This document shows, one piece after another, positions 14,516 to 63,698 of a stretch of DNA of 64,000 bases. Every line of letters begins with the position of its first letter. Position 1 is the first letter of the stretch. The notes below the pieces were generated by a model. The model did not search any database. It was not told the DNA's origin and was given only the letters and a program-made list of their open reading frames with translations. This stretch comes from Apiospora phragmitis (taxonomy: Eukaryota; Ascomycota; Sordariomycetes; Amphisphaeriales; Apiosporaceae): the NCBI GenBank assembly GCA_038363925.1, contig JAQQWL010000008.1:1984001-2048000 (forward strand), given 5' to 3'. A program made the position numbers and the translations under genes.

Positions 14516-15311
14516 TCTGGGTAGCGTTCGCTAAAGCCAAGGACGCAGAATCAATTCTGCGATCATAATATACACATTCTCTATTAGCTCTGCTTGTTCT
14601 TGCGGGCACTGCTTGATCGGAAACATGCAGTGTGTTTGCTGGCTCTGCATGTTTCTGCATATTTTCTGTCAAGTAGTATCCTTCGACGGACACGTGTTTC
14701 TTCCCAGTTGCTCTTTTGTCTTTATCTGCGATGCCAGTAACGTTCACCGTCCAGAATTCGTACAGCCCGACACAAGAGTACCAAGAGATCCCTCGTGGCG
14801 GATATCCAGGAGGTAAGTGTTGTCCTATAGTGGTCTTGAGGCATGAAAAGGGGTAGTGGGAGAAAAGTTAAGTTCACGCACTGTTTGTAGCACATCTGCC
14901 TTGACGTATGACACAATGCTAGTATGGAACATCAGAGATCACATTGACAAGGGTGACCAGCCACAGAGCAGACAAGTGATGCTTCCGTTTCGGGACGTCC
15001 CGTAGTGGCGGCTAATCGGAATCGAGGCTGATGCATTTCTACTCCCCCGCACCAATATGTACCGCGGAAGAGGTGTCGGAGTAGCGATAAGGCAATGATG
15101 GGGTAGGCTGCCTCGCTGTCTGCCTTTCAGTCAGCCCAGGATGGGAAATGGGCTGACTGATTTGCACTGCCCGCGGACGCCGCCTCAAAAGTTCTTTCTT
15201 ACCCCGCTTGCCAGGCCCGTCGTTCTCTGAGCCAACACTAGAGGCAAACCTTGCACATCGATTACAATCCAACTACACTCCCAGTCTGTTTCGTCTGGGC
15301 AAACATCGAAC
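14516..15311. other. Intergenic between divergent regulator and NLR relic
   Basis: About 800 bp with no supportable gene; presumably promoter DNA for the two flanking divergent genes. Confidence 0.4.
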
Positions 15312-22746: not shown

Positions 22747-22794
22747 GTTTTAAATAAATAACGCGTATGAATTATTAATAGCTTTTAAACTTAT

Positions 22795-22990
22795 TATTAA
22801 ATAAGCTTTCGTACGTACGTATAAGTAGGGGTTTAATTAGTACTGTATTACTATCTTTTATTATTTATCTTTATCTATTCTACCAGCTGCGAGGGGTATC
22901 GCATACCCCTCTTTATAAAGTAGAAAAGGGGTTCGTACGCGTAGGTACGTGGCACCGCTTTTAAGGTAATATAAACAGCCTTAGTTTTAG
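22795..22990 (-). repeat. LTR family 1, copy A (inverted)
   Basis: Reverse-complement match of the family 1 LTR: contains gcgaggggtatcgcataccc and gttcgtacgcgtaggtacgt. It lies almost at the left edge of the block. Confidence 0.8.
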
Positions 22991-23145
22991 CTGGTCTAAC
23001 ACTTATTTCGATAAATAGTCTTAATTATTTTTAATAAAAAATAACCGCGAATTAATTAATAATAACGAGGCGGTTTATAATAAATATATATAATAATATA
23101 ATAAATAAATTAAACTTTTTAATTTAATAAAATATTTATTAAAAC

Positions 23146-23338
23146 AGCTACTCCAGGGGCTTCCAGCACCTCTTAAAAAGGGCGTCACGTGCGTGCGACG
23201 CACGGATTATTAACCCCTCGTACGAGAAGGTAAACGTTAGCGGCTTCCCGTTAATTAATAAATAAAGGAAATAAATAAAATATAAATACCGTTTTAATTT
23301 TTATATAACGTATATATATATTAAAAAGCTTATTTAAT
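23146..23338 (+). repeat. 5' LTR, family 2 (pairs with 31973-32166)
   Basis: About 193 bp, near-identical in layout to 31973-32166. Both share aaaaagggcgt, gacgcacggattattaaccc and ctcgtacgagaaggtaa, then a string ending in a purine-rich tail. The two copies are in the same orientation, 8.8 kb apart. Confidence 0.82.
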
Positions 23339-26300
23339 ATTAATTAATAATTATACGAAATAATTATAAATTAATAAAAGTAAAGAAACGGTTTTATATT
23401 AATATATAAGTAAGGCGACTATATTAAATAATTTAAAAGGATTTTTAAATCTTTAAAAAAAGTAAAGCTACCTCTTTTGTATAAAGTTTAAATTTTATTT
23501 TTTTTAAAACGAATATCGAAAAAAAGAAACTAGGTTATAATACGGTCGGAAAATTAATTAAATTATATATTACTTTATACCTAAAAATAATGTTGTATAA
23601 ACTAATTAAATAATATTTTAATAATAGTATTTACCTTTAATACTTTTTAACCAGGCTAAGATCTTAATATTAAATAATTTAAAATCCCTTAGATATCCGA
23701 GCCGTCTAAAGTACTTAAAAACGAACCCGAGATTATGTATAAAGAAGCTATAGCGACCACGAGAATGAAACTCGGGGGTTTAAAAGGTAAATATTGACCT
23801 TAAGAAATAGAACGACGAGCCGGACCCGACATTACCCGAAACAACAAAGAAGGAACTAACGATATACGCTATATAATACCTTTATAATGATTACTTTTTA
23901 AAATTATAAAAAATACCTTTATAAAATAATTCGTTTACGATTTTATTAAATAAATAGAAAAGGTATTTAAAAATATTAATTATATATTTTTAAAAACTTT
24001 TTTTATATATTTAAAAAAGAACGGAATCGATACCCCTGATAATAATATAATAACCGGGAAACTAATAAAACTTACCGTATACCGACGTATTTTATTATTT
24101 AAATTAAAATAATAACGCCGACCCCCAACCGTTTAAAAAAAAAGTACCGTATAGAACCTAATAAAATAACTAACTAAAAATTATATAATAAAATAAGAAA
24201 CGCGGGAAACTTATACGGTATAACTAGCCGTACGACTAAACCCTAATTACTAGTATTCCTTTTTCTTAATTACGTATCCTAGTATACCCGGTATTAAAAC
24301 TTTTTAAAATATTATTTTTTTCCTCGCTTTTAATTAAATATTTAATATTAATATACAAACGTTTAATTTAATAAATATTATTACGTATAATATTTTATTA
24401 ATTCGAATTATTTATAATAAAAAAGTAAATAATTTTAAAATCGTTTTATTTTTTAAAATATAAGAAAAGATTAACGATTATACCGGCGTATTATATAATA
24501 TTTTTATTAATAAAGTACAATTTTTTATTAAGACCTACCGCCGATTAAATATTTTAAAAAATTAGTATTACGCGATTTTTCCGGATATCCTAGCCGGCTA
24601 TGCGGTAAACTTTTATTTAAACTATATCGACCTAAATAAAAAATAGGATTAAATATATACCGATTTCGATAAATATTTTAATAACTCGGTAACTTATATT
24701 TAATATTATACGGATTAAACGAATATTATATTTATATAATTAAAAATAGAAAACCCTAAGAAATCGTTTTTAAAAGTTTTAGAAATATTATTTAATAAGT
24801 TAACCCGCGTATAACAAGCCTTCGGAATAGAATTTTAAAGAAAAAAATACTTCTATACTTCTATTATACGAGCTTACCGAGGAGTTCCCGAATTCGAACC
24901 GGCCCTTATCCACCGGTAATTAATATACGAAGGTTTATTTTTTAACTTTTAAACCTTGCTAAGTATCGCGATAGACCGAAAAATAATAACTGGCTATTTA
25001 ATAAAAGGATTACCGCCAGAAATAGCCTTTAAAGCGTATATAATTAATAGACGCTTTATTAATAACTATACGAGAGGGAATAGGCCGTCTTATAGTAATA
25101 AACCTTTTTACGAGAGTAAACCGGTATTTTTTAATAACCGGAATTAACGAATAATAATATTGTTCTAATTTAAACTAATGTATAAAAATAAGCCGTTTTA
25201 GAGAAGAACGTGCCAAGTTTATTAGAAATAAGGATATTAGTCGATAAACTATTTATTTAAAGAGTAATCTCGGGTATAAACCTAATACTTTTAAACGTAT
25301 AAAGTTATTAAATAAAATCCCTTCGTATTAAAAAAATACGAAATATTTATATAAAATTAAAAAAACCGTAAAAAGATTTTAATAATAAAAAAAACTACGA
25401 TTATATTAATTTAGAAAATATACGATAAGGAATTATTTACTTAATAAACGTTACATTCTTTTACCGGTTTATAAAAAAGGATATCTATTCTTTAAAGCTT
25501 ATTATACGAGCGGATTAATTTAACTTAAACGGTTAGTATAGCCAGGTATATTAAAGTGAATTTTAGGATACCGGTACTATATAGCTCTCGATAATTGATA
25601 AGCTTTAAACCGAAGCTTACGTACGAAAAAACCCGGATACTTAGATTAACTAAATTTTTAGATTAACCGAGATTAAATTCGGTAATTTATTTTTAATATT
25701 ATTAATCGGTACCCTTAATATATAGAACTAGTTAAGAATAATGAAATATTATATTCTCGAAACTTAAACCTTTTTTTATTATCGTTATATAATACTAATA
25801 AATTTAAAACGTATTATAATAATATTTTTAACGTTATTATACGAGTTAATAAAAAGATACTCCCGGTTATTAAGAAATAAAGATATTCGTTTTTTAATAT
25901 TAATTATATAAAAGCGACGGTATACCTTATCGAAGTATAGCTCCGGTACCTCTACCGTTGGTTCGGACATCCCCGTATAGAGAGGCTATATAACCTTTTA
26001 AAAAATACTAGCTACGATAACGTCGAGATTTTTATCTTTAATAAAATCTAGAAATTCTGCTCTTAGTATTAGACGTACGACCCGGTATTATAGCGGTTTA
26101 AATTCTTATTTTAAAACTTGTACGATTTTAATTATAAAATCGTTATTAATATTATATATATTAATAGATAAAATATATTATACGTTATTAATATTAATAC
26201 GTTTTTTTAAATAGTTATATTTTTAAAGTTATTTAGTATATAAAATATTTAAAATATATTTTATAAATATTAAATATACGTTTATTAAAGCTTTTCGAAT

Positions 26301-26408
26301 AATATTTCGTATAACCCCGGAACTTATTTTTAAAAAGAGTTCCGGAATTATATACGAGTAATAAGAATTATATATAAATAAATATTAATCGAAGTATTAG
26401 AATAGTAG

Positions 26409-26602
26409 GAACTAAGGTTTTCTATATTATTTTAAAAAGGGGTGTTACGTACCTACGCGTACGAACTCCTTTCTTATTTCATTAAGAGGGGCATATAATA
26501 CCCCTCGTAGCTCGTATTAAAAATAGATATAAATAATAGAATAAGAACGATTAAACCCCGATTAAAACCGGAATTATTATATATACGAAAGCTTATTTAA
26601 TA
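26409..26602 (+). repeat. LTR family 1, copy B
   Basis: Starts gaactaaggttttctatatt, includes acgtacctacgcgtacgaac and ccctcgtagctcgtattaaa, and ends gaaagcttatttaat. It is followed by gag-like remnants, so it is probably the 5' LTR of the inner element. Confidence 0.82.
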
Positions 26603-29387
26603 TTAATTAATAGTTACCCGTAGCGATTATAGATTAGTAAGAGTGAAGAGACGGTTTTACGCCCTTACCGACGTAAGGGCGACCGTGCTAAGGAGCCTCG
26701 AGAATTTCCGCCCGTTAGAGATTCGGAGGAAGAGCCGAACTAAATTAACCGTATAAGGAGGAACCCTTTTCCCGAGTATATATTATAAAAAGGAGATTAA
26801 ATTCCGAATTATATACGAAATTAATTAAACTATATATAATTATATATTTAAATAATTTTATTATACGATTTATAAAATAATAATTTTTATTAAATAAAGT
26901 TAATCGCGGTCGGCGAATCGAGATTAAGCCTAGATATATTGAATTTAAATAAACCGACGATTTTAAACCTTAAACCGTTTATATATAAAGAAATATTTTA
27001 AGATATTAAATTTTTTTTAATAGTTTAGAAAAGAAACGTTAACCTCGTTTTTTAAAAACTCGAACCTTTAAACGTATTTTTCGAAAAAATAATACCTAAA
27101 CTATTTACGACGTACTTTATACGATACTTTTTAAAATATTATATATTAAAAATAAAAGGGACCTCTTTTAAAAAAACGTTTATTATAAAGTTCGACGGAT
27201 AAATCGAATACTAATTCGGTTAAATTAATTATATATTTTAAAAAAAGTTCTTTAATTATTTTAAAAAATACGGAGTTAATATATTAATGGACGGATCTTT
27301 TAAAACTAAGCTTATAAGTTTAGTATTACCGGCCGATCCTATATATTAATAAGACCGACCGGTAGAACCGACTTCGGAAACCCGAAAGGAGGATATTTTA
27401 TATTCTTCCCGAGAATAGACAGTCGAAAAACCGCCGCCTAAACGAGAGACACCCGGTCTCTATACGGAGTAATCGTTCGCGACACCACAGGGTACTTTAA
27501 AACCGACGTTTAATCCCGGAGTTTTAAATACTTTAAGCCCGACGTTTAACCCTAGATTCCTAAGTACCCAAGCGTCGCAAGACGTTATCTTTTTTCCTTC
27601 TCCGACTCCGATACCGCCGGATTAAACGGTACGATTATCTGGTCTAGTATATATTACGAAATACGATATTCCTTTAAACCGAGCTATTTATAACGGTAAA
27701 ATTGATCAAAATAAAGTCGTTACTTTTTTAAAGGTATAAAGGAAGGAAAAGAATTATACCGGTAAGCCGTACGACATTTTTTATAATAAAGTATAGATAT
27801 TTATCGGAATATACTGACGGCTAGATATATTAAAAAACCAATACTATATAGTTTTCTTAAACATTTTTTCCGGCTATACGGAGGTATTTTATCTTAATTA
27901 TATCGGACTTAAAAAGAAATAAGACGAGATATATTATTTAATAAATTTATATTTTAATATAATAATAAATTACGTATAATATTTTACGAATTAAATAATA
28001 ACCTTTTTCGTATAAATAAAAAATAAAAACGCCGAGAAATAACTTATCGAGGTTTTAGAAATCTTATTAAATAAGCTTTAGCTCGTATAACGAGCTTTCG
28101 GAAAAAGATTCGAAAAAGAGATCGCTTTTTATACCTCCATCGTAAGAGCTTATCGAGAAGTTCTAGAACTTTTATTAACCTTTATTTATTAAAAATTAAT
28201 ATATAAAGCGTTATTTTTAAACTTTTATATATTATTAAATATAATAACGAATTAAAAGATCTCGGAATAATACTTAACAGAAAAATTATATCGATACCCG
28301 GTTAAAAATATATACTTAACTAATAAACGGTTTATAAATAACTATATATAAAAAAACCGACTAATTTATAATAATAAATTACTATATAATAACCGATTAC
28401 TAAAATAAAAAAGTAGTTAATAACCCGTTAATACCTTTTAACTAAAGCTATTATACAGGAATCGGCAGTTCGAACAAGAAACTTACCGAATCTGTTATAA
28501 GTAAAGCTATTAATTAATAAACTACCTAGCCGAAAAACGAACCGATATAATAATCCAATACCTTTAAACATATAATAACATGGGATAAGATCTCTTTATT
28601 TAAAAAGAATACGGGGATTTCGTCCGAAACTAAAAAAGGAAAAGGAAGGAGTTAAAAAATAATAAAAAGGAGTATAATTATTTCGATCCGGAAAACGTAT
28701 AATAAGGTATTATTTATTTAATGAACGCCGCGTTCTATTATTAACTTATTAACGAGGATATTTACTCGACGAATATTTAATTAAATTAGGAACAACGAAC
28801 GAAAAAAGACTAATAATCGATATTATATCGTTCTAAGAATTATATAAAAAAGGGAGATCTTAGAAATCTGTTAGGTCGACGGCCGAAATAACTTTATAAA
28901 CATTTTTATTAAAAAATCTCTAAATAAAGCCCTCGAATAAATAATCTTAATAAATAGCCTTATTATATATATAAAAGCGTATATTAAGCGGCTAAACTCG
29001 TATAGCGAATAAAAAAAAAAGAGATACGATCTTTAATAAAGTATAACGTAATTCGGTATATAAAAACGCGTACTTATTATTATTATTATTTTTAAATAGT
29101 TCTTTTTAATTTATAACGGGAAAAAAAACGTATTAATATATAATATTTTTTTTTAATACCGTTACTATTATTAAATAATTAAAATAATTAATTAAAAAGA
29201 TTTACTACTTAATAAAAAAGGATATTAAAAAAGTATAATATTATTTATATAGCTTAAACAGGTACCGAATACCGGATTAATATAACCTATCCGTACGGAA
29301 ACCTTTACGGCGGGAAGACTCGTTTTAATAAAAAGAGCTAGCTAAGTTTATCGTTAAAATAAAAAGTTACTAATATTAAAATAATAA

Positions 29388-29580
29388 GAACTAAGGTTTT
29401 TTATATTATTTTAAAAAAGGTGCTACGTACCTACGCGTACGAACCCCTTTCCTATTTTATCAAAAGGGGTATACGATACCCCTCGTAGCTCGTATTAAAA
29501 ATAAATATAAATAATAGAATAAGAACGATTAAACCTCGATTAAAACCGGAACCACCGTACGTACGAGAGCCTATTCAATA
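29388..29580 (+). repeat. LTR family 1, copy C
   Basis: Same motif order as copy B, 2,979 bp downstream in the same orientation. With B it brackets a short element holding gag-like and RNase H-like remnants. Confidence 0.82.
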
Positions 29581-31972
29581 CGAAGCTTATTAAATAATAA
29601 AAAAAATTAAAAAAGTGTACACTTTATTTTACCGAGCGTATAATATTTTATAAAAAGAGTTAAATAATCGTATAAACCCGGAAACGGTCCTTTAAATAGT
29701 AATAAAAGCTTTAAACGATATTGCCGGCCCGGATAGGCTCGTTTCGACACTCCTTATTTTCGGAATATATCTCTGAATTAATACGAGTTCGCCTCCGTTA
29801 TTAGAAATCTAGGCGAGAGCGGAAGCTGTACAAAAAGCGATAAAGATATTACGGAAGATTTAGGTAGAGGTTAATATTAATCGAGCTTTAAATACCTAGA
29901 GTAAACCGTATATTTATAATATTTTTATATTTCTACTCCGTATAAAGGTTTTTATATAGCGAGAAAAAGGAGGATAGACCGGATCGTACCCGATCGCCAT
30001 AATTAAAAACCGTATAGTTTAAGTCGATATATTAAACGGCCCGAAGGAGTTTTAAGTTATTTAAATTAAATTATATTTTTAAAAACCCGAAAAACTTGTA
30101 AAAAATATGGAAGGCGAGAATAGTACTATTTCTAAAATAGAGGATGATATTATTTCCGAGGTAAAAGACGTTATTATTATAAAGTAATTTAAAACTCCCG
30201 CGTAATAAGGTTAAAGCCGACCTTGAAAATATTTATTTCCGTATAACTCTTTAACGGTATTCCTTATTTAAAAAGAATATAAAAACTACGACTTAGCCGT
30301 TAAACTCTGGAAAAATAATATAATTACGGCCTCCGAAACCCTTTTTTAAGAATTAAATACGGAAGAAATAAATAACCTCGTCGTATAAAGGGTATTCGAG
30401 TTTATTTAATTTGACCTGAAGGTTTATAATAATTATTAAATCTTTAAAACCCGGCTTATACAGAAGATTAAAAGGAAAAATATTAAACCGTATAAAAAAT
30501 CCAAGCTTATCGTTTAAAAATAAGAAAATATGGAAAAAGAGAAAATCCTTACTTAATCGCTAATAATTTAAAGAATAAATTAAAAGCTAGTGTTCGTATT
30601 AAAACCGACCCTTATTCGGAATTTTAAAGCTTATAAGGAATTACGGGATATTACTTAAATATATATTTAATTATATAATAAGTTTATTTATATAATATAC
30701 GCGAAGCTTTTAAAAGAGTTTAAATCTTAATACTTTAAAAAAACGTTTTTATAAATCGTATTATTATTATACGGCTTAATAAAATTTAAATTATATTAAT
30801 TTAAAATATATTACGAGTACTATATATAAAATTTAGGAATAACGGTTTTTATATATAACCCTTATTTATTCTTTATAAACGACGGCTTAAAAACCTTCGG
30901 GATTATTACTATATAAATTAATAATACCTTTAGTTTTATTATAAGCTCTTTTTTAAAAAAAAAAAATAAAAAGTTAATAAAAATAACGTTTTATACGAAA
31001 TTAAAAGAGACTTTAATAAAAAATATGCCCGTAAAATTTAACGGAAGTAAAATCTTATTAAAAACGCACGATATCTTTTTTTAATAAAAAGGATAAGTTA
31101 AATAACTCTAGCTTATAAATTTAAAAGCTATTAACCAAAACTAGTAATATATTTCTTAACGTACGAAAAAGGGCGTATATCGCTTTAATCTACTAGCCGG
31201 AGGTAGCGTATAACCTGTTGGTCATAACCCAGGTACAGGCCCCTAAAAACGAAGATATCGAGCACCTGAACGCCCAAATTATTTAATAAATTGAGAACTC
31301 GATATAAAAACTCCGATATATCCCTTTCGACCTTTAATATATAAAGATATATATCTTTATTAACGGCTCGTTTATAAATAATAAAAACTTAACTTCTTAA
31401 TTCGGGTACCTTATTGTATTTAATTAAAAGATCAAGCGTATAAAAAATTAATTTAAAATCTAAAATAATATTATTTATTAAAGCTTAACGAAATATAAAA
31501 AAGTTATTTAAAATATAATTACTCGTTAATAAACTATACGGGATAATTTCTAGCGTCGATAGCGGTATTATATTAAATACGACGTTTAAAAAGATTATAT
31601 AAAGTTTAAAATTTTAAAAAATTCTAATAATCTTTTATATAAATTTAAAGTTTTTATATAAATACCTGGTAAAGCTTAATATAATAAACGAAAAGCGATT
31701 AATAATTGATATTATATCGCTTCGAAAATTATACGAAAAAAAGGAAATAATAAAAATCTATTAAATAAACGAACGGGATAACCCGGCGGACGTTTTTATA
31801 AAGAAATTCTTAAATAAAGCCTTTAAATAGCTTATTTTAATAAATAAATTAATTATATAAATAGAGGCGTACGTTAAAAAGCTTCGCCTATATAACGAGT
31901 AAACGAAAAATAAAGAGCAAAAAGGAAAAAAGAGGATTTTCCCTTTAAAAAGAAAAACTGCTAGTATTAGAA

Positions 31973-32166
31973 TAGCTACTCTAAAGGCTTCTAATACCTC
32001 TTAAAAAGGGCGTTACGTACGTACGACGCACGGATTATTAACCCCTCGTACGAGAAGGTAAGCGCTGGCGGCTTCCCGTTAATTAATAGATAAAGGAGAT
32101 AAATAGAATATAAGTACCGTCTCAACCCCTACGCAGCGTATGTACGCACTAGAAAGCCTATTTAAT
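31973..32166 (+). repeat. 3' LTR, family 2
   Basis: Direct partner of 23146-23338. It lies just downstream of the RNase H remnant, as a 3' LTR should, and it retains more CpG-rich positions than its partner. Confidence 0.82.
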
Positions 32167-32357
32167 AATATTAATATTAATAATATTTAAAATACCCGCG
32201 GCTTTTTTTTATAATATTAAATTTTCTTATTATATAAATTATATTAATTAAATATAAAAAGTTATTCTTTATAATTAATCTTTTATTAATTATAGCCCGT
32301 TACTTTTTTAATATTATAATTATAGAGATCTCTTTAATACTTTTATTAAAATAATAA

Positions 32358-32555
32358 GAACTAAGGTTTTTTATATTAGTTTAAAAAAATGTTACGTACC
32401 TGCGCGTACGAACCCCTTTTTAATTTTATTAAAAAGGGTATACAATACCCCTCGTAGCTCGTATTAAAAATAGATATAAATAATAAAATATAGTAATATA
32501 ACCTCGATTAAACTCGGAACTCATTTATACGTACGTACGAAAGCTTATTTAATAG
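32358..32555 (+). repeat. LTR family 1, copy D
   Basis: Third direct copy, 2,970 bp after copy C, with no internal domain of its own downstream. It may be a solo LTR. Confidence 0.8.
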
Positions 32556-32630
32556 CTTCGTTTTTAATATAAAGCTTATATTACTTATAAAATCGATTTA
32601 ATGTTTTTATTAATTATAATTATTAAATAA

Positions 32631-32815
32631 GCTATTTATATATATGAGGGTTCTAGGCTTAATCGAGGTTATATTACTATATTTTATTATTTATATCTAT
32701 CTTTAGTACGAACTACGAGAGGTATTATATACCCCTCTTTATAAAATAGAAAAGGAGTTCGTACGCGCAGGTACGTAATACCTTTTTTAAAGTAGCATAG
32801 AAAACCTTAGTTTTT
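32631..32815 (-). repeat. LTR family 1, copy E (inverted)
   Basis: Inverted family 1 LTR facing copy D only about 75 bp away, near the right edge of the block. D and E together form an imperfect inverted repeat of roughly 190 bp per arm. Confidence 0.8.
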
Positions 32816-33086
32816 ATTATTTTAATAAAAATAGAAATAATAAATAAATAAATAACGAGGTAATATATACCGATATATAATTATAATAATAAAGTTAAAA
32901 TATAAAATAAATAACTTAATATTAAAAGATTATTATTAAATAATATATACTAGTTAATTAGTTAACTAACTATTAACTAACTAAACCACAGGCTCTTAAA
33001 TAACCGAAAACATTAACCAACCGGCTAGTCATAACTAACTAATCAACCGATGCCAGTCGGTTGGTGTGGCTGGTACATAGATAGCC

Positions 33087-35006
33087 TTGTATGAATCACT
33101 TAGCCGTGAGGACAGAGAGATCCGGCTCTTGCAGTTTTCCAGCCCTACTGGGCACAATGTCAGCTCACGGCTCGCCCTGAAGCTTGGGCATGAGTCTCTG
33201 GCCAACGAATCCACCCATTACTCCGCACTTTCATATGTATGGGGTAGTAGCACGAGTCAAGTGGAAATTGAGATAAACGGGGCCCCGTTCTTGATCACTA
33301 ACAAGCTGTATGTCGAGCTGGATCGATGCCATATGTATCAACCAAAGCGAGAACTTCGAGAAGATCTGGCAAGTCTCCCAGATGCACACGATTTATAGCC
33401 GGGCAGACCGAGTATACATGATTCTGGGCTCGGGCTCCGCCTGAACCAACCGCGCTATGGGTTTCATTTTTCGCGTTGGACCTCGAGCGGTTGCATCCGG
33501 TGCACTAGATCCATGGACGCGAGAGAGGGAAGAAAATCTGCATGAATATGTTGCCGCGCGGCCTTCCTCCCCAGTGCAAGGCAGCTGTGGGGAGTTTGAA
33601 GAGGGCTCGGAACTTGCTCGATTAATATACGACATATTGCATGAAAGATGTATCTATCCTTCGTCGCCTCCAAATGAGAAAGTCTGTTCTGGCACCGCAT
33701 TTGGATCACTCAGGAGGTGGCGCTGGCAAGACATGCCATAGTCATTTGTGGCGAGCGGAGCGTGTCACTAGACGAGCTTGAGGGCACTTAGTTGGCTGTG
33801 TTTCACTGCATTGGAAGAGGGCTTCGGAAAGTGGCCTCGAAATATGCCAAGTTTGCCTGGGGTATCCCCGGAATCCCTGATGACTCTATGGTGTTAAGTG
33901 TACGCCGTCGACGCGTTCATGGGAAAGCAGTACGACTGGCTGATCTGGTCTGGAAAGATGTAAATCCACCGTGGCGACCACATTATTCTGCGCCTGATCC
34001 TCATAATATCTTCTTCGCGCTACTTGGCATCAATTCGGATGGCGAGAAGCTTGGCCTGGCGGCGGACTACGGTAAGACCTCTGAAGAAGTGTATATTGCC
34101 ACTACAAAGGCCCTTATCCATGATGGTGACATTCACCAGTTTTCATTTCACTTGGATCGATGCGTACCAATGGAGAACAGCGAAACATCGGAGGGCCTGT
34201 ATTCATGGGTTCCTGACTGGGTATTTTTTGGAAGGCGAGGATCTAGAGTTCCCAGCAAAGATCACAAAAGACAATTCGCTGCCGCCGCTGACATTTTGCC
34301 AGCTTTCGCAGCTCACGAAAATATGAGCCCTCGCATTTTACGGCGACCCGGCTGACTTGTTGACAGTATCACTGAAGTTATGCAACCATCATATTGGTTT
34401 CATGGTAACGAATGGGGACCCCCTCACATTATTCACTCAAAGGCTTGGCTGAAACCCATCATCCAGTTCGCTGGATTGGGACCCGATTCAGATCCAGCGG
34501 AGGCTTACGTATGGCGCACAGTGATGCTAGATAGACGAGATGGCATCCATCGTCATAACAGCAAAGAACCCACGACTACGAGCGAAGATTATCTCTGATT
34601 TTTCCGGAACTTCATGCGTCAGGAGCCCATCAATACTGATAGCCTGACCTCAGAGGTGTCTGAATTCGCTCATCAAGAGGTCTATGACTATTCGATGCGG
34701 CCAGACTTGGACACCGTCGACAAGCGCTTAGTCGACATTATGCGCTTTTAGCCTCGTTGGTTAGGATTCAGCAGGCGCGGAAGGACAATTTTCAAGACCA
34801 CCAAGGCCATGTTCGGGCTGGGTCACGTTGCGATCAAGCACGGTGATGTCGTAACACTATTGTGGGGTTTTACCTTATTACGATCTCGGACCGACGATGC
34901 TACTGGCGGTGGCTACACGTTCTTAGGAGACGCATATGTATATGGAATCATGCAAGGCGAATATCTTGAGACAGAGCCAACGGAGGTTTGGTTTGATATA
35001 TTTTAG
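33087..35006 (+). pseudogene. HET-domain (heterokaryon incompatibility) gene, disrupted
   Basis: The HET-domain order is visible in shifting frames: IRLLQF and HYSALSYVWGSST, then WIDAICINQSENFEK and QMHTIYSRADRVYMILG, then RIWITQEVALARHAIVICGE, then DPHNIFFALLGINSDG with SWVPDW. The C-terminal core follows (GDVVTLLWGF ... FLGDAYVYGIMQGEY), ending at 35006. No ATG precedes the first conserved segment, and a TAG lies just upstream, so the 5' end was lost at the retroelement edge. At least three frame changes and several stops (for example the TGA after LGSGSA) follow. HET proteins trigger incompatibility cell death; this copy cannot be functional as read. Confidence 0.87.
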
Positions 35007-39611: not shown

Positions 39612-41806
39612 TTATGTCGCCCTATCCTGCAGCGTGAGAGTTTGTTCACTCAACCTTACATCCGAACCTCTCGGATTGAGGGACTCGATTGTGAATTTCT
39701 CCGTCCTACTCGATTCGCACTGGAGACAGGCCGATCGCCCCGTAGTCGTGAAAAGCATCTTGGTTTTGCCGTTGCGGAGCGTATCGACAAGATCGGCTAG
39801 CACGGAGTTAGTGGTGCGGTCGTCGAGCCAGTGGAGACCATCGACGACGCAGAGCAGTTGCATGTCGAGGATCTTGAGCACATCACCGAGCAGTCTCAGT
39901 GCTTCGGGCATCGAGTCCATGCTTCCGTTGACCAGACTCAGCCGCACCTCGGACAAATTGAGACTGGCCTCAAATTGAGGTAGAAGCAGCTCCATCGCTT
40001 GACGTGTCAGGGCGGTGATGAGAGCGGCAGTGGCCTGAACCTCTCTCGTATTATTTCCTGGACGTAGCTTCTCTCCTCTCGGAAGATGGCAGAAGCTGTT
40101 TAACAGTTCTGGTTAGTACAGAAGGAACACTGCCTCAGTGCCGGTAGTCGTCGAGGACTTACTACGAGATTAAAGGTACGTTCCCCTGGTCTGCCAAGTC
40201 GACAACCCTGGCCGCGATAGTCGCGAGTGGATTGTATTCATCTCTCATCGGTGATGCGGGTCCCTCGAGCCAAAGGATGCCAGGATCTGCTTTGGCCCAA
40301 TTCGATAGCCGGCGGACGACTTGGTCTGTCTGCATCACCGGACGCAGTTGCAACCCAGGTAAGCGGACACGCTCCCGGTCGAAAAAATCTTCGAAATGCT
40401 TCGAGTGTAGAAGAACGTCATCGGCCATGATTTCCAAGCTTGTGGAAACGGATGATGTCGATGTTGGCAAAACGGCCATGCCAGTGGTATATCCAATGGG
40501 CAAGAGAGTTCCCTGCTGCGAGGCTTCTACATTCTCATTAGTTTTCTCTTTATAGGTGGCGAAACGAAAAACAAAAACAGAACCTCACTGTGGTTGCTCG
40601 TTATGCATGGGAAAGTACTCACGCGTTGCTGCGCGCGCATTGATTACAGCTCGAAGCGCTTCGTCTCTCCAGCATTTGGTTTAGAGTACCGGCTAGGTGG
40701 TCCATCAATTGCCTCTGTGTCGGGACATCCCTTCTCCTCATAGCCTCACGCTGCTCAGCCTCTATGCGATTGGCCGACGCAATCAACTCGGCGCGCAGTC
40801 TCGCTTCGCCTTCTTGACCAGCAATCATGTTTCGCTTCATATTCTCCAGCTCAAGTCTCACAGCCCTGAGTTCGACTCGTGAGCTTTGTTCGGCCAAGCG
40901 CTGAATCCTTTTGGCTTTGTTATTGATATTGCTAATCTGATCCTCGTACTTCTTGCAGAGGTCCTCGTTGAAGGAGCCAAGGAGTCTTTGAAGCCGTTTC
41001 TTTGTCAAGTAGTCCATGAGGTCTGAAAGAAGAAGAAAGACTTCGGCGTACAAGGTTGCTACGGCCTCTTTCATCTCGGGAGTTTCGTATAGCTGAAGCT
41101 CCACTTGACACTCAGCAACATGTTCAGTAATGGTAGAAAGAGCTTCGGATAAACTCTCGATAACTCGTTCGTAGTTTGCACTGGCCTGTAGGGAGGTCAG
41201 CCCAAAACATAGTGTGGGGGCGTTTTAGAAGATATGCCGTTTCTTGTTACTTTTAATATGACATTCAAGGTCCCCGTGAAGATCGAAATATACTCATTGC
41301 CTTCCGGAAGAATCTTAAGGAGTGATTTGTGCGAGTCGATACCCCGGCACAACCTGCGGAACTGGTGTAAAGTCTTTCCGCGTCGTGTGTCTTGGCGCCG
41401 GTTCTGCCATTCGTTTTGTATTCGTTTGACGACTTCTAGGACTCCTTCGATAGTCGGTTCATAAGAACGCAGATCAAGTCTATCATCTCGTGAGCAGCCG
41501 TCATAGAAGGCAGCCCACTTCTTTTTCAAGTTTGATGATTCAATACTTAGGATCTTCTCAATCGGGTCACTGTCTACGTTAGCTATCCTTCATATTGGGC
41601 AGCGCATCTTCCTACCCATCTGCATTATCTTCGTCGCGTTTCTCAAAAAACCGTCGCCAAGGGTCTATGTCGCGGATTTGCCCCCTATCATGGGCCAAAA
41701 CCTGAGTCAGCGGATAGGCGGCATCGTCTTCTGTGATTCTCTCTTCGACATCGAAGCTGTACACTATAACGTGCCTGATTAGCGGACGGCAAACTTGAGA
41801 CTGCAA
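39612..41806 (-). CDS. DUF7708-type NLR-like protein lacking a P-loop
   Basis: Multi-exon gene of the fungal DUF7708/NACHT-like class. N-terminal part: IDPWRRFFEKRDEDN, an intron, then KKKWAAFYDGC and the DUF7708 core (FRRLCRGIDSHKSLLKILPE, YISIFTGTLNVILK). An intron splices in frame to ASANYERVIESLSEAL. A coiled coil follows (about 40960-40640, RIQRLAEQSSRVELRAVRLE). The ATPase-like part begins GILWLEGPASPMRDEYNPLA, where a Walker A would be expected but no G-x4-G-K-S/T exists. A Walker B-like LLCVVDGLHWLDD is kept. Introns at about 40620-40500 and 40160-40063 restore frame; the first junction is not fully resolved. The gene ends at 39612 without C-terminal repeats. A role as a regulatory or decoy NLR relative is inference. 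Confidence 0.75.
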
Positions 41807-42593: not shown

Positions 42594-45131
42594 ATGATGT
42601 CAACCATGGTGCCTTCTTCATCCGATGGCAATCAGGGGACAGCGGCAGCCCCAACGCAGTCAACTAAGCCAGCTGCCTCCCAAACAAACCAATCCACCGC
42701 AGACCACAAAGTCCGAATAGGGTACCGTACAGAGTACCGCGATGCGAGAACCGACGAAGTGATCAAAGAGGAACCCTCCGACGTGCCTCCGACGGACTCA
42801 AATACCGAACAAACCCTGGGACTAGTCTTCGACGTCGTGAAGACGTACAGGTACACCCCGAGGACGGACAACAAAAATAGCGACTGGGCTATTCACAGTG
42901 GAGCGGTACCAACATTTGCCATCAGGCTATATTCACCTGCTATAATCAATGCATTGAGAGCCGTCGTCCAATACTATCCAGGCCAGGATCTTAGCGGCGA
43001 AATCACCATCAACTCTCCCTACTGTATTCTTGTTCATCATTACGACGAGTTGCAGGAGTATGCAAGAGAGCGCCAAGATAAGCCCCCGGAGTCCTTGTGC
43101 ATAGGAGACCGCTTTGTGGCTGAGCATATGAAGGCACTAATCCAGTTTCTGGATGAAACAGCCATGAAAGGCGTCAGAGCTGAGATGGAAAGAAACGCAA
43201 GAGGTTATTACTCATTTTTCTCATGCTTGGGTGGCACACAAACCAGGCAGGACCATGATTTGCCGGTACAGGAGCCAGAGCAGATGGCTACCAGGAATCA
43301 TCAGGTCAGTTGCAGGCGGGACGTTTGCATACCCGCCCACAGAATGGAAGGTTTCCTTTTGGAGGCTGAAATACGATGGACGGTTCCTTTCGCGGGTAGG
43401 GTACGTTTCGAGTATCTCCCTCTTTGATGGAGAGTTGAGCTTCAAGGAAACCACACGGAAGATACTCGATACTGCGACATTGGAGGGCAGTGAAGATCCT
43501 GTTGTCCAAGAATTAAAAGACTGGGGCCGTAAGTACTGTCGGCTTCTACAGAAGCAGTGCATGCACCATGCTGGACGGAGTACGAAGCTCCCTTACCAAC
43601 AGGTAGGTTTCCCAGAGCGCCCGACTCGCACATGAAGACTGAAAAATCCAGATCGATGGACTAGTAATGGCAGATGCTCAACTTGCCGTATCCATTAATC
43701 CCCCAAGCGGAATAATAGATCAGAGTGACCTACGCAAAGGGGGTTGGCGCTGTCTCTGCTCCGTCTGTGAGTCAGCTCGAGTTGGTGGCGGCGAAAGCGA
43801 GTTTGCGACTGCTTTTGAGGGTTACGATGCAATCGGCTCAGCCAAATGGGAGGAAGACAAGATGACATCACATCAGTATCTCCTCTGTCCCTCTGTAGTT
43901 CGGGTATTTGTTTTTCGGACGAGGTCTTGGGGTAATGAAGGCCCTGTCCCTGGACTGTATACTAAAGTGGAAAACCTAACAGCGAGACAGAGAAAGTTCA
44001 CGTCCAAAACCTCTCAGATCCGGAATTCGACGAGACTATGGTCAACAACCTGATCATAGAAGAGAAAAGAAGCGCACACTGACATCTCTTGCGAAAAGTT
44101 TTGCACGTAGAAACAAGGCAGAGGAGACGATGCCTAGACCTATGTGGAGCGCCGACTTTGTCATGGGTAAAGGCTCAGGATTGACGTTTCTGCTCCATGG
44201 GAAGCCGGGCGTCGGGAAGACCCTCACAGCCGGTATGTTCGAGTTGAAAGTCCCTGACCCCCAAATCATCTGACTTAAGTTCCCAGAATGCATAGCGGCC
44301 TTCACGAAGCGGCCTCTGATGATTCTGACATCTAGCGATATTGGCACTGATGCTAAGGACGTGGAAAAGAACCTGACCGAGCATTTCAGGAACGCGAAAA
44401 GCTGGGGCGCCGTGCTACTCATAGATGAAGCAGATGTATTCATGGAACGGCGCTCCACGGCCGACTTGACGCGTAACAGCCTAGTCGCCGGTCAGTTGGG
44501 GCCATCCATCCACCCACTATCCATGATCGCGAATGACTAACCAGGCTTTGCAGGCTTTCTGAGAGCTCTCGAGTACTACGAGGGCATCCTGTTCCTGACC
44601 ACCAACCGAGTGGGGTCGTTCGACGACGCCTTCATCTCCCGCGTCCATGTCCAGCTGTACTACCCCGAGTTCACCGACCACCAGCGGCAGAAGGTCTGGC
44701 AAACCTTCATCGACAAGCTCGAGCGCGACCGCAAGGGCTACATGCGGCTTAACATGGCGTCCAAGGAGTACATTGAGCAGATTAACAAGAGCAACCTGAA
44801 GTGGAACGGGCGAGAGATCAGGAACGGTACGTTGGCGCGCCCCAGCTCACTCACTCACTCAGTCCGTGGCGGCAGCGGTATTACTTTGTCTGTGTGCTAA
44901 CTCTTGTCAAACTTCTCCCCAGCATTCCAAACGGCCGTCTCGTTGGCCGAGTACGATGCGGAGAAAGATGCCGAAGGGACCATCCTGGTGACCGACCAGC
45001 ACTTGCGCGCGGTGGTGGAGCTCTCGAAGGACTTCAAGGACTACTTGCAGGAGCTGCATAGTGGCGATGAGGACAAGCGAGCACAAGGGCGAGCTGAGCG
45101 CCTAGACAGCTTCAAGGCAGACAAGAACTAG
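42594..45131 (+). CDS. DUF7025-AAA ATPase, two apparent frameshifts
   Basis: Fungal AAA+ ATPase with an N-terminal DUF7025-like domain. From ATG 42594 a disordered leader precedes INALRAVVQYYPGQDLSGE and PYCILVHHYDELQEY. A frame change near 43205 leads to HAWVAHKPGRTMICRYRSQ and GGTFAYPPTEW. Introns at about 43602-43650 and 43931-43999 splice in frame. A second frame change at about 44075 precedes the AAA core: Walker A GKPGVGKT (44199-44222), Walker B VLLIDEADV (about 44413-44433), sensor LFLTTNRVGSFDDAF and arginine finger SRVHVQL. Further introns begin at 44233, 44491 and 44827. The C-terminus ends KDFKDYLQEL ... at 45131. All catalytic motifs are intact, so the two 1-bp breaks deserve checking before calling it dead. 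Confidence 0.85.
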
Positions 45132-53612: not shown

Positions 53613-54912
53613 ATGGCTCCCCAAAGTAATCTCGACCTCGCCAACGCCGAGATTGAACGAGTAATGAAGGTGAACGCTCAGCTAATGCTACAACTTGCCG
53701 CTTTTCACGAATAAGTCCACCGAAGAAATAAACATAGCACATCGCCTTCAAGGTTCCAGAACAGCTAGCAGCACTCCTAGCGGCAGACCAAGCAATGTTT
53801 CGAGGAAAAGTAGCTCCCTTGCTTCAAAAAAAAAACAGCTACATTCCCTCTAAAATCATATCTTCGCCCTACAACTGCTTGGGCCAACCGTACGAGCCTA
53901 CCAGAGCAAGAGGTGGAAGAGAAGTCTCCGGCGCAGCTGCGTACATCTAATTGCAACTACGTGCGCTCGATATGCAGCCTACGTTGTCGTCGCTCAACCG
54001 CCTGCCATATTACTACTTCGACGACTATGATGATCAGAGCACCGACAGCAGCGACAACCTCGAGGAGGGCTGGGAATGGGATCGTTCTGACGAACCTGCT
54101 CCCGCCCTCCCGGAGTCACCCCTGAGCAGATAAAAGAGCTGTGGGCGCCTGACGACAGTCAAAAACCTCCTGTCGAGGAGCCACTACCACCGCACCTACT
54201 AGAGCGTAGCCGACTTGGTGATACGGAGTTCGACAACGAAGCCTCGACGTACGTACGTCAACCAGAGTTCGCCGTGGCCCTGCGCCTCCTGAACGAGGCA
54301 CTCGATCTCGCCAAGGGAGCCTTCTACGACTACTGCCGACAGCACCAGCCCAACATCTGGCGCACCCGGTTCCCCGGCGAGCCCCACGAGGTGCTCCTGG
54401 AACATCCCGAGATCGAGGACCACATCCGCCAGTTGCACAACGCCGCCGTGACCGGCCTGGAGTACCTACACATCAACTCCGCGCTGCGCCGTGTCAAGCA
54501 TATGCGGAACACGGTCTGCCACTTCCGGCCGGGCTGGGTCAAGGAATACGACCGCTTGATACGCTACGCCCAGGGCGTTGCGGTCGCGGTCGAGGACGAG
54601 CCGAGGGCGTTCAGGCTTCGGGCCATGCGGGACGAGTTACGAGCCGCGGCGGCGGAGACGCTGGAGATCGAACAGCTGGGGTTCGCGTCCATCAGCCCTT
54701 GCCCCCGCCAATGGAAACCCCATCACGAGTTGTTCCTCGGGGATCTGGTCGCCAACGAATATGCACCGGAGTACGAGCCTTGACCAGCTGTTCTCCTTGC
54801 TGTCGAGGCGTGGGTATGGCAACGACGAAGACTCGGTCTAAACCACCCACCCTTGGAAGGCGAAGTAGATTTAAAGGGGCTCTTCGACGAATCATCTGAC
54901 AGTTCTCTATAG
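53613..54912 (+). pseudogene. HEPN-like tandem family, copy 1
   Basis: First of three diverged paralogues. ATG 53613 begins a short helical leader (LANAEIERVMKVNAQLML) that stops at 53713. An acidic disordered part (about 53951-54105, SDNLEEGWEWDRSDEPAPAL) follows, and after a frame change near 54108 the conserved domain (about 54120-54780). That domain contains AKGAFYDYCRQH, RTRFPGEPHEVLLEHPEIED, then RNTVCHF (54505-54522 for R to H) and EYDRLIRYAQGVAVAV. A TGA at 54781-54783 interrupts, but the same frame stays open to TAG 54910-54912, and its first part (AVLLAVEAWVWQ) matches copy 3 (AVGLAVRAWRWQ), so the stop looks premature. The family is not one I recognise. The R-N-x3-H motif between helices resembles HEPN ribonucleases; function is inference. 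Confidence 0.7.
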
Positions 54913-55576
54913 TATAGATGTGTACAGCACTTTACTTATATTAATCGTTCTTACGTATAGAACTAAACTCCAAGTGCCTTGTTTACTTTTACAAGTCTCA
55001 CATCTTGCCGTCGTTTAGAAAGGCGGTAAACCACACGATCACATCAGGCCTCGTACAGAAGTCATTCGAGTCTGAGCAATCGAACAAACAAACCCATTAT
55101 CTATCAATACTAGAGCCAATAGGTTGAAAATGCGTGTCTTCTCAAACTTTGTGATTCGGTACTGAGCTTCTCAGTACACTTGTAACCCACTATTTGGGCT
55201 GGCCCAGCTTATGTCTTTGCTAATAACGAAACAACATGTGCCCTAATTGTGACAATAGTACTATTGTCGAGTGATGGATAAGCAAAAGTATCTGTTTACT
55301 CCACTACTGCAGGATACTCGGCCTGCTAAGGTTACTTCCTTATTTCGTCGAAACAACTCGGATACACCAACCGTCTTCATTCTTTTTTATAAACGCATAT
55401 TCATGTTTCGTCTTAACCAGTTAACCTGAAACATAAGCATCACAAGAACACTTCAGTTTTGCTAAGGATTCCCATTTTCTTCTCATCACCCTCTCCCGCG
55501 CAAACAAGATGGTTTGCTACATTTCTTCAGCTGCCCACCAACTGGGACCCACACATGATACGAAGAACACAGCTAT
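54913..55576. other. Spacer between copies 1 and 2
   Basis: About 660 bp with no supportable gene. The ORF starting at ATG 55509 reads in a frame without similarity to the family, so the 5' exon of copy 2 is not clearly placed. Confidence 0.4.
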
Positions 55577-56542
55577 ATGCTCGACACCGCATCCTCTATT
55601 GAGAAGAGACTGCCAAAGATACTGTCGAAGAAACGGCGTGAACCAAGCGAGGAAAGCTCCACCCCTGAGGCCTATTCCCCGCCACCAATAGATTGAAGGG
55701 ACCCTCACCAGAGGCCTGTCGTTTACGGCGCTCCAGAGGGTACGCCTGCCCCCATAGTAGAGAACCAAACCTTGGAGGAGATAACGCGGTTGGAAGTCCC
55801 CATCTGGAAGAACCAAGCGTCAAAGTTCGTAAAGATCCCGTCCGCCTTCGGCTGGTATCTTGTGACCCAAGCGCATGACATTGCCAGAGGGGCCTTTCGC
55901 GGCTTCTGCGAGACGCATGTATCCGCGCTTTACCGAAGCGAGTTCCCCGGCGGCGACCACGAAGTGCACCTCGAATACACCGAGATCGAGTATTTCCTCC
56001 AATGGCCTATTGCCCCCAAAGGTAGTTTTTACTCCGACGACTACGTGGCTAGTGCTCTGAAGAAGACAAGATGTCTTCGAAATGCATGTAGCCATTTCCA
56101 GGGCCAGAACTTGAACGCCTCTGACTTCGATAGGTACGTTAAGTACGCACAAACCCTCGCCGTGGCGGTGGACGATGCGCCGAGAGCGGCCAGAGCCCGG
56201 GCGTTACGCGAAGAGCTGGGGCAGGTGGCAGCCGAGACATACGATGAGATTGAGTCTCTAGGCTGCTGCTCAATTCTATATGTCCAACGTGAGTGGGAGA
56301 TCCACCACGGACTATACCTAGAAAGAGTCTCTCGCTCAAGTGAAGATTCTTGGATTAAGGATGAAGAATACGCACTCTGGCCTTTAATTACACTGGCTGC
56401 TGAGGCACATAGGTTGCAGCAGGAAAGCATTAGCGACGATTAATCCGTCGTGGATGAAAACGAAGATACTTCATATGACGAGTAACAGACTTCATACGAG
56501 GAAGAAGAAGCGTCGGGGGAAGCAGGCGGCTATTCAGGATAA
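55577..56542 (+). pseudogene. HEPN-like tandem family, copy 2
   Basis: Frame from ATG 55577: a basic leader (SSIEKRLPKILSKKRREPSE), a Pro-rich linker, a TGA at 55694-55696, then an open frame (GAPEGTPAPIVENQTLEEIT) into the conserved domain: AFGWYLVTQAHDIARGAFRG, FPGGDHEVHLEYTEIEYF, RNACSHF (R to H at 56078-56095) and DFDRYVKYAQTLAVAV, then RALREELGQVAAETYDEIE. A TAA at 56441-56443 ends the main ORF, but the frame continues with an acidic tail (SVVDENEDTSYDE), a second TAA (56483) and more acidic residues to TAA 56540-56542. The three premature stops would each revert to Arg or Gln by one T-to-C change, as RIP would predict. The leader coiled coil of copy 3 is not seen here. Confidence 0.7.
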
Positions 56543-57261
56543 GGAATAAGTTTGGATAATAATATCAACACCGGCAATGATTCCCTCAATCAAGTAGGCA
56601 GGTCAGCGTGCCATGAAGTCTACAGCTCCGAGCACCTCATCGAGCGCGAAGGAGGCGACTCGACAGTTTAAGAGAAATCATGAATAAGAAGGGGAGCAAA
56701 ATTGTGTTGCCAGAAGCTCCGTAGCATGCTCGCCCGTGGTTAGGGGAGCGCGTATTCACGGTGATCTAGAGGCGGGCAGCCTTATTCAAAAATATCTGCG
56801 CACCTTTCTCCCACTGCTGTTCAGAAATGGCCCGCCGGCCACAAGCGCTCTCTCGGCTGATGCGCGAGTACAAATTTCGCCTTTGCTGAGTTCGCTGTGA
56901 CTCGGCAGCGGGTCTCCGTACGAGTGTTGGCCGCCTTCTGTGTCGCTTTTGCTGCGCTTTACATGAGCCAAAGGAGCTTCAGTAACCTATAGGAAATGTG
57001 ACAAGAGCGTGATGGTCAAGTCATAGATTTTGTGCATACCACTATAAGAAAAACTCCCGCCCCAAAGCTGCTAACAGCATTTTTACTAAGTTAATTCCTA
57101 CACAAGACCTTTTTCCTTCTGTTCATCCCAACAGCTTTTTTGGTTTCATCGTAAACATTTCCACGCTATCCACAAACACAACATAAATACAGTGGTATGC
57201 AACCCAGCGTATTCCTCCCGCCTTTCGATCAACGAAAGACCTACTTCATCTTATCGCCAAG
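56543..57261. other. Spacer between copies 2 and 3
   Basis: About 720 bp without a supportable gene. Confidence 0.4.
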
Positions 57262-58523
57262 ATGTCGCCTCACCATGTGGCACGTGGGAAGGAAAACGAG
57301 CGCCTCTTGAAAGAGGTTGCGAAGCTCAAGCTCGAGAACAGCATTCTCAGACGCCAATCTAGACCAAGCGCATCGCGTAGCTTCTCTCAACCGAAGAAAA
57401 CCCCAGAAGCCGCAGTGAAATCGTACCTCCGGCCCACTGTCGCCTCCTCGAGACGGGAAACGACCTGGGAGGACGAGCCACCCCCTACTAAGCTCGGCAT
57501 AACATATGCCCCTACCCACTACTACATGCGACACACTGTGTCATGTCATAAAGCGGGATTAGACCCGAAAATGTTTGTCGTCTCGGCTGTCTAACTTCTA
57601 TCCTGGGGCTCAGAGGAGGCAACGGTGATTAACGACCGTCAGAGCGAAATCGGAGTGTTCGGAATCTTCGGATGATAAGCCGGAAGAGGAGCCAAAACCT
57701 GCTCCTGTGTCAGCCCGGAAAGTTGAGATGCTGAAAGAACAGACGCGGCTTCTGGATTACAGCTGGAAGAACGCCGCAGCATCTCACGTGGTAATCCCCT
57801 CTACTATTGCCCACCGACTTCTGTCCAAAGCGATCTTGGAAGCCAAGGGAGCTTTCCCTGACTTCTGCAAAAGCCGCCTACCACGACTGTGGAGATACGG
57901 GTTCCCCGGTGGACCGCAGGAAGTATGTTTCGAGTACGTCTGGAACGAGCGCTATTGTGCATTCTTCAACGTATCGGGCGTGCCAATTTGGAGCATCCTG
58001 GATGGAAGTCAGACTTCTGCGAAACGAGCTCTGTCACTTCTCAGTCGGCTTGAGCGCCGCCGACTACGACAGGAAGATCAAACACGCGCAGGCGGTCGCC
58101 GTGGAGCTTCTTGACGCCCCGAGAGCTATCAGGCTCCGGGCTCTACGCGATGATTTGAGAGTTGCCGCCTCGGAGGCTCTTGAGAGAATCGAAACCTTGG
58201 GCTGCGCGTCAATCGTCCACGTTGCACACTACTGGGAACCCGAGCACGAAGTCTTCTTTCGGGGATTTTACAACTACATGCCCAGAGATCTCCATCTCAC
58301 AATCGATGGGATCCAGTTCTCGCCTGCCGTAGGGCTGGCCGTGCGGGCCTGGAGATGGCAGAAGGCAGTGTATTGAAGCGACTACGAGTTTCTCGTAGAT
58401 AACGAGGGCGTCAACTCAGAAGACAACTCAGAGGAAAACTCAGAAGACAACGAGGAGGACCACGGGGAGGACCACGGGGAGGACAGCGAGGAGGACAGCG
58501 AGGAAGATAACTCGTTGAATTAA
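57262..58523 (+). pseudogene. HEPN-like tandem family, copy 3
   Basis: Best-preserved N-terminus: ATG 57262 starts a charged coiled coil (ENERLLKEVAKLKLENSILR) and a basic/Pro-rich linker. That frame stops at 57594. An acidic stretch (ECSESSDDKPEEEPKPAP) begins the next open segment, leading to SWKNAAASHVVIPSTIAHR, AKGAFPDFCKSRL and FPGGPQEVCFEY. A frame change near 57995 precedes VRLLRNELCHF (R to H at 58020-58037), DYDRKIKHAQAVAVELLDAP and LRALRDDLRVAASEALERIE. TGA at 58374-58376 interrupts. The frame then continues for 48 codons of acidic repeats (EDHGEDHGEDSEEDSEED) to TAA 58521-58523. Same domain and tail design as copies 1 and 2. Confidence 0.72.
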
Positions 58524-62477: not shown

Positions 62478-63698
62478 TCAGTCATGAATATGGCTAATCC
62501 ATAAGTCAATCTGCGCATTGCCTTTCTCGGCTGGGATATTTGGACAGGTATTCGAAAATTGTGCCTCCACACGTACGACATCACCGGGCTTATACTTATT
62601 CTGGCAGTGCCACCAGGCACTTGTCAGTGCGTTAATGACGTCAAGGGCCGAGATCCTGCCGCGCGGTCAGTAATGGTTCTATAGCTCTGCAGAGAACCCG
62701 AGCCTCTACTTACTGAGCACCGTCCGTACTGCCATCAGGGCGTGCCAGAGAGACACTGCATGTGCTGCTGCGAAGCAACTCGTTGTACATGCCTGCAGGG
62801 CCCCAGTCGCTTACGTTCCAATACCCTGGCGTGGAAAGGAGAACCCCCTGCAGACGTTCGCAGTCGCTCCATAGTGGCGATTCGTCGTGGGTTAGGCAGT
62901 TGGATGTTCCCTGGCTGCACAACGCTTCATGGGTGGGTGTACCATTCCAGTCATCGGTGAATAGTTTGAGTGGCTTGGCGGCCTCTGAGCGCTTCGTGAT
63001 ACCCTTGTTACGTGAAGATTTGATCGGGGGCATGGGGGGCGGGGCAGGGGTGCCTACTTGGTCGATAATGGCGATGATGATTTCTCCATCATCCATGCCC
63101 GGCCTTGTGTCCGGGCAGTCAGCTGTCCACATTGCACTCACCAGATGTTCACCATTGGGGCCATTGGTACTGCAAACCTGGCTGGAATCCTCAATGAAAG
63201 TACAGGTTTCCAGGGTCCCGATTCTGTTGCACGGTTAATAATGGCTCTACTTGTAAAGAGGTACCAGGATTCTTACCGAGTAGGATCCGTCCAGTTAGTG
63301 TCGTTACGCGCCACAAAGATCTGACATGTGTTCCACCAGCCCAGCAAGTCATATAAGCCTTGACCGTCCCATTGGGTTATATCCCAATAACCAGGTGTCT
63401 CATCAAGGATGTTGATCAACCCCACGCTGAATGTCATCGCGAAATCGCGGGGCAATGAGTCGGAGACTGTTGATGGGGTGTCTTCTTCCGGGGGCATTGA
63501 AACATCCTCGCTATGTGTAGCAAGGAGTTCAGATGGTGGTGCAGCGGCCGCCTTGTCATCCGGAACGAAACTTTCATGGAAGTAGACGGTGGTGACGGTA
63601 CCGTCGCTGCGGGTTACATTGTACTCGACGAAGCCTGGCTTGATCGGCGCAGCGAGGCCAAAGAGGCAGAAGAGAGAAATGATTACGGGGAGAAGCAT
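62478..63698 (-). CDS. Secreted protein with two Hce2/Ecp2-like halves, 369 aa
   Basis: Three exons, 63698-63277, 63223-62714 and 62655-62478, join in one frame (GTAAGA...CAG and GTAAGT...CAG). ATG 63698 starts a strong signal peptide (MLLPVIISLFCLFGLAAP). Two similar modules follow: DETPGYWDITQWDGQGLYDL with TLETCTFIEDSS, and LLSTPGYWNVSDWGPAGMYN with STCSVSLARPDG. Each has the TPGYW block and the Cys pattern of fungal Hce2-type effector-like secreted proteins. Between them is a Pro-rich linker (APPPMPPIKSSRNK) and DCERLQ. The third exon supplies the end of the second module (CQNKYKPGDVVRVEAQFSN). Hce2 family members include virulence-associated and ordinary secreted proteins; which applies here cannot be told. 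Not disrupted. Confidence 0.8.

Follow-up and report, generated by a model that had tools for sequence, protein, structure and literature searches.

In the 64,000-nucleotide stretch of Apiospora phragmitis DNA analysed here (contig JAQQWL010000008.1; hereafter the window), three related genes lie one behind the other between positions 53613 and 58523. The reading put forward, which we regard as evenly poised between right and wrong, is that they are three paralogues, arrayed in tandem, from a fast-evolving family restricted to Apiospora, that their common domain is HEPN-like and a putative ribonuclease (RNase), and that the array is partly pseudogenised in this genome.

The three copies carry one domain head to tail, all on the plus strand and with the shared blocks in one order; this part of the preliminary description of the locus was borne out by the sequence and its open reading frames (ORFs), although several of its details had to be corrected. 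The motif codons, read directly, are RNTVCH at 54505-54522 (copy 1), RNACSH at 56078-56095 (copy 2) and RNELCH at 58020-58037 (copy 3), so that the motifs are 1,573 bp and 1,942 bp apart. When the copy 2 domain was searched against its own genome (52.67 Mb, 19 contigs), it recovered copy 1 (E 1.7e-30), both halves of copy 3 (E 1.2e-18 and 7.2e-5) and nothing beyond the three copies at E <= 0.001; at E <= 1, the A. marii relative P0003 hit the copies alone, again as four stretches. Judged from sequence, the similarity among the copies is far beyond chance. The copies are old, because about half of their aligned nucleotides differ and their synonymous sites are saturated in the dN/dS (nonsynonymous to synonymous substitution) comparison, with a proportion of synonymous differences (pS) of 0.68-0.78.

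Outside the window, four family members were found by protein searches, all of them in Apiospora: P0002 and P0005 from A. hydei, P0003 from A. marii (444 amino acids) and P0006 from A. arundinis (434 amino acids). The A. hydei proteins carry consecutive locus tags (PG997_010176 and PG997_010177), and therefore a tandem array is probable there too. P0001 and P0004, which are predicted from the window itself, were also recovered. These searches have limited sensitivity: the one that found P0002 did not return P0003 (probably because of its length), P0005 or P0006, and the other two did not return P0002. Since true relatives are missed in this way, the restriction to Apiospora holds within these searches. 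A search of bacterial genome contigs with P0003 gave no relative: 15 stretches matched a pattern, but none was confirmed. P0006 is named '26S proteasome subunit RPN7' in its source, but it has no RPN7 or PCI Pfam match at E <= 5; the name is probably a wrong annotation, and by its sequence the protein is a homologue of the array proteins. In a tree of eight rows, copy 1 groups with the second domain of P0005 (96/97, starred; 47% identical), copy 2 with P0002 (99/99, starred; 56%) and copy 3 with P0006 (91/86, not starred; 44%), while P0003 stands close to the first domain of P0005, which is partial, with 63% identity over the part present. As the copies pair with relatives from other species at 44-56% identity, the paralogue lineages probably predate these species; the family probably evolves fast.

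The full-length relatives are predicted to begin with a coiled coil, to continue with a middle part of low complexity and to end with a helical domain of about 170 residues; the predicted coil is only suggestive of dimerisation. The N-termini of P0003, P0006 and P0002 read MV(C/H)YI...HQL(G/R)LEK, followed by a leucine-rich stretch. In the AlphaFold model of P0003 an N-terminal helix (residues 8-47; block predicted local distance difference test (pLDDT) values of 80-92 from residue 11) is followed by a low-confidence middle and by the domain at about 211-378, which is all helical (block pLDDT 69-95; helices 211-219, 230-234, 239-264, 266-272, 284-291, 301-322, 331-347 and 351-377). The corresponding helices are present in the model of P0001, from copy 2. 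R318 and N319 of the motif lie in the final turns of helix 301-322 and H323 just after it. The model is thus a helical bundle with its motif near a helix end, ahead of a second helix, a predicted arrangement compatible with HEPN topology; the HEPN fold is one of four helices arranged as two alpha-hairpins.

The R, N and H of R-N-x3-H are invariant in 7/7 domains, as had been expected of homologues (the first domain of P0005 starts behind the motif and was left out of the scoring). The Rx4-6H spacing is four, and the residue directly after R is always N, a position that is polar in HEPN proteins and mostly N, D or H. However, the domain has further invariant polar residues besides these three: in P0003 numbering, R221, E283, D350, R353, R358, R361 and E376 are likewise conserved in 7/7, together with P352, A354 and others, and the block DxPRAxxxRxxR equals the motif in invariance. 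In many but not all HEPN families the upstream acidic residue typically belongs to an Ex3[KR] pattern; the invariant E283 has no K or R at +4 in P0003.

Membership of the HEPN superfamily is plausible but unproven. In its favour, besides the motif and its predicted place at a helix-helix junction, the profiles of five motif-bearing HEPN families all align best at the motif, four of them in register. The profiles held 23 rows for RiboL-PSP, 18 for Abi_2, 16 for PF05168, 15 for DUF4145 (which we take to be a HEPN member), 6 for MAE_28990, 3 for Apea, 27 for MtlR (27 of 80 loci) and 21 for the control PF05635; 17 loci with short flanks, locus L087 and ten partial or stop-bearing loci (one of PF18735, four of PF05168, three of PF05635 and two of PF07751) were left out. 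PMC3710099 lists both Abi_2 and MtlR as HEPN. When columns were shuffled with the motif kept in place, the real score was reached in 2/60 cases for RiboL-PSP, 15/60 for Abi_2, 0/60 for Apea, 6/60 for MAE_28990, 2/60 for DUF4145, 30/60 for PF05168, 7/60 for MtlR and 0/60 for the control. Block shuffles did so in 0/130 (RiboL-PSP), 30/130 (Abi_2), 1/130 (Apea), 21/130 (MAE_28990) and 38/130 (DUF4145), and in 3/130 for the summed score, which double-counts some loci because all seven MAE_28990 places are RiboL-PSP places too, so that the five families do not amount to five independent tests. RiboL-PSP and Apea stand above the motif-kept shuffles in both the column and the block tests.

Other results give HEPN membership no support. 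No HEPN model, only weak matches, was obtained with Pfam (four window pieces and four relatives), NCBIfam (three window pieces), or PADLOC and PHROGs (eight family rows). Several of the weak library matches fall on the coil. Two candidates were discarded: NCBIfam DS11_antiphage for copy 1 (E 0.098; 11.7 bits against a cut-off of 260) and Lipase3_N for copy 2 (E 0.0049), which is below its cut-off and absent from the relatives. The PDB sequence search, made with copy 2 only, gave a single match (E 0.56), and neither Foldseek, proposed earlier as a check, nor the viral fold library produced any match at E <= 0.001. A Roquin chain with a HEPN domain ranked fourth in the structural list, within noise; no other HEPN chain was recognised among the structural matches listed, which leaves the fold itself possible. 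The top structural matches are assorted helical proteins, for example THATCH and talin domains. Moreover, the HEPN profile alignments have HH probabilities of 6% or less, and when R, N and H are masked the best alignment leaves the motif in 4/5 families and is out of register in the fifth, Apea; therefore the HEPN likeness rests on the motif. These results, together with the equal invariance of DxPRAxxxRxxR, count in favour of a genus-specific helical coiled-coil protein that is not HEPN, a scaffold or nucleic-acid binder rather than an enzyme, in which RNx3H would be structural or serve binding. This is a serious but somewhat doubtful alternative; against it stand the best alignment of all five families at the motif, four of them in register, the scores of RiboL-PSP and Apea above the motif-kept shuffles in both tests, and the position of the motif at a helix-helix junction.

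The array looks partly pseudogenised in this genome, with the copy 3 domain broken in frame and copies 1 and 2 carrying stops or deletions outside the domain core, an apparent decay that the preliminary description missed. Copy 3, taken there as a single frame, has its domain split over ORFs 57629-58114 and 57795-58376; the frame switches at about 57,990-58,002, just upstream of the motif helix, where a stretch is absent relative to P0006, and P0004 spans only the second half of the domain. Copy 2 keeps the initial leader residues and lacks the coil, and its leader reads ID*RDPHQRP where A. hydei P0002 has IDWRDPNQRP. In copy 1 the frame continues after its TGA with PAVLLAVEAWVWQ, like PAVWLAVEAWR of P0005, and the leader sits in other frames than the domain. 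In copies 1 and 2 the frame stays open across the domain, and the stops of copies 2 and 3, at about the end position of P0003, were not counted as lesions. The leaders, described as charged and shared, lie in other frames or before stops, and in copies 2 and 3 a stop codon precedes the acidic tail.

That all copies here are intact intron-containing genes, a view compatible with the other explanations, is improbable. A pattern search found intron-like signals in the copy 1 leader (53890-53977) and at the copy 3 leader-domain junction (57573-57642), and introns may account for the leader-domain breaks of these copies. Besides, splicing could occur at the copy 3 break because a donor-like GTACGT, outside the search pattern, lies upstream of it at 57934, and the deposited model P0001 must splice, since its initial M is not encoded by the adjoining codon, CAG. 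However, the search found no full intron signal at the copy 3 domain break or in the copy 2 leader, copy 2 is without the coil, the copy 1 TGA falls within homologous tail sequence and P0004 is half a domain only. The repeat-induced point mutation (RIP) indices TpA/ApT and (CA+TG)/(AC+GT) are 1.00/0.97 for copy 1, 0.91/1.09 for copy 2 and 0.75/1.04 for copy 3, compared with 0.71/1.21 at 38-50 kb and 0.83/1.12 at 50-64 kb. The thresholds in common use are 0.89 and 1.03, respectively; copy 1 is close to them, so light RIP of this copy is possible.

If the domain is, as we consider most likely, a divergent HEPN-type fold, the coil would pair two chains and the paired RNx3H sites would form a metal-independent endoribonuclease, by analogy with characterised HEPN enzymes. 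RNA would be cleaved by H with R as helper, as described for KEN, PrrC and RloC in passages of PMC3710099. It is improbable that the domain is HEPN-like but catalytically inactive and binds RNA, as in Roquin or Swt1, its R, N and H being retained to contact RNA: Roquin's is the sole HEPN-containing chain recognised in the structural list and inactive versions are described (passages in sections 6 and 9 of PMC3710099; Roquin in those of PMC4614863), but RNx3H is complete in every domain scored, whereas passages of PMC3710099 expect inactivity upon motif loss. For the putative RNase, rapid divergence and tandem paralogues suggest that it acts in conflict, be it an antiviral, a nonself or a stress response, a combination of traits linked to defence in the passages of section 9 of PMC3710099. 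The fullest version, a fungus-specific HEPN RNase family that dimerises through its own coil, diversifies in tandem, is gained and lost among Apiospora species and degrades RNA in antiviral or nonself responses, is rather unlikely.

An active HEPN nuclease would add a lineage-specific RNase family to the filamentous fungi; among the papers listed for HEPN with fungi or ascomycetes, no such family appears by title or abstract start, nor do the HEPN passages of some of them describe this one. The full-length predicted proteins of A. marii and A. arundinis make the family directly testable. Should it prove not to be a nuclease, it would still be a genus-restricted, fast-diverging tandem family decaying in one lineage.

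Pfam was run at E <= 0.01 on 30 ORF pieces, a subset of the window's ORFs. AAA-type genes had been described as neighbours and were found, together with DUF7708; the NACHT, HET, kinase and vWA genes also described had no model in the 30 pieces. The DUF7708 and AAA_16 locus (39615-41224) is possibly an NLR-like gene, and the DUF7025/AAA_lid_13 locus is a probable fungal AAA+ ATPase gene. Nothing links any neighbouring gene to the array. Elsewhere in the window, an AT-rich island at 22000-34000 has a G+C content of 0.24-0.38 and a (CA+TG)/(AC+GT) of 0.15 over 24-32 kb, as expected for RIP-mutated repeats.

Table. Features of the array and of its surroundings in the window
Feature	Position	Strand	Remarks
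Copy 1 leader start, coil-like (MAPQSNLDLANAEIERV...), then in-frame stop	53613..53714	+	frame differs from copy 1 domain frame
Copy 1 domain ORF, 230 amino acids, RNTVCH	54091..54783	+	TGA at 54781
Remnant of copy 2 leader, sharing MVCYISSAAHQLG with relatives, without coiled coil	55509..55696	+	TGA at 55694
Copy 2 domain ORF, 248 amino acids, RNACSH	55697..56443	+	holds most of P0001
Copy 3 leader, leucine-rich coil (KENERLLKEVAKLKLENSIL) and KSYLRPTVASS block	57262..57594	+	
Copy 3 domain, part one	57629..57994	+	ORF 57629-58114
Copy 3 domain, part two, different frame, RNELCH	58002..58376	+	ORF 57795-58376; is P0004 (124 amino acids)
Acidic stretch after copy 3 stop (SDYEFLVDNEGVNSEDNSEEN...)	58377..58523	+	
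WSC	8150-9049	-	Pfam
Short-chain dehydrogenase	12002-12916	+	Pfam
Zn_clus	13769-14530	-	Pfam
ERG4/ERG24	37.5-39.1 kb	-	Pfam
AAA_16 (below cut-off)	39615-40112	-	Pfam; adjoins DUF7708
DUF7708	40622-41224	-	Pfam
DUF7025 and AAA_lid_13	43168-44897	+	Pfam
Carboxylesterase	60.3-61.8 kb	-	Pfam
Hce2 (putative necrosis-inducing effector)	62713-63234	-	Pfam, E 7.5e-6

Compared with known systems, the structural match to Roquin (RC3H1/2), whose HEPN domain is assembled from the first and last helices, with the ROQ domain between them, and contacts RNA (passages of PMC4614863), does not rise above noise. The R-N-x3-H of the Apiospora domain aligns in register with that of the motif-bearing families RiboL-PSP (PF18735), Abi_2 (PF07751), Apea (PF18739) and MAE_28990 (PF18737), and for RiboL-PSP and MAE_28990 the next stretch after the motif is also alignable; the Apiospora proteins differ from these families in having no significant sequence or profile score, in being found only in Apiospora and in their coiled-coil leader. 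Unlike the HEPN expansions of particular eukaryotic lineages (Daphnia, monocot KEN and others) treated in passages of section 9 of PMC3710099, the family is a small tandem array in a fungal genus and belongs to no recognised HEPN family, but it resembles them in consisting of diverged paralogues of a single lineage in which the motif has been kept.
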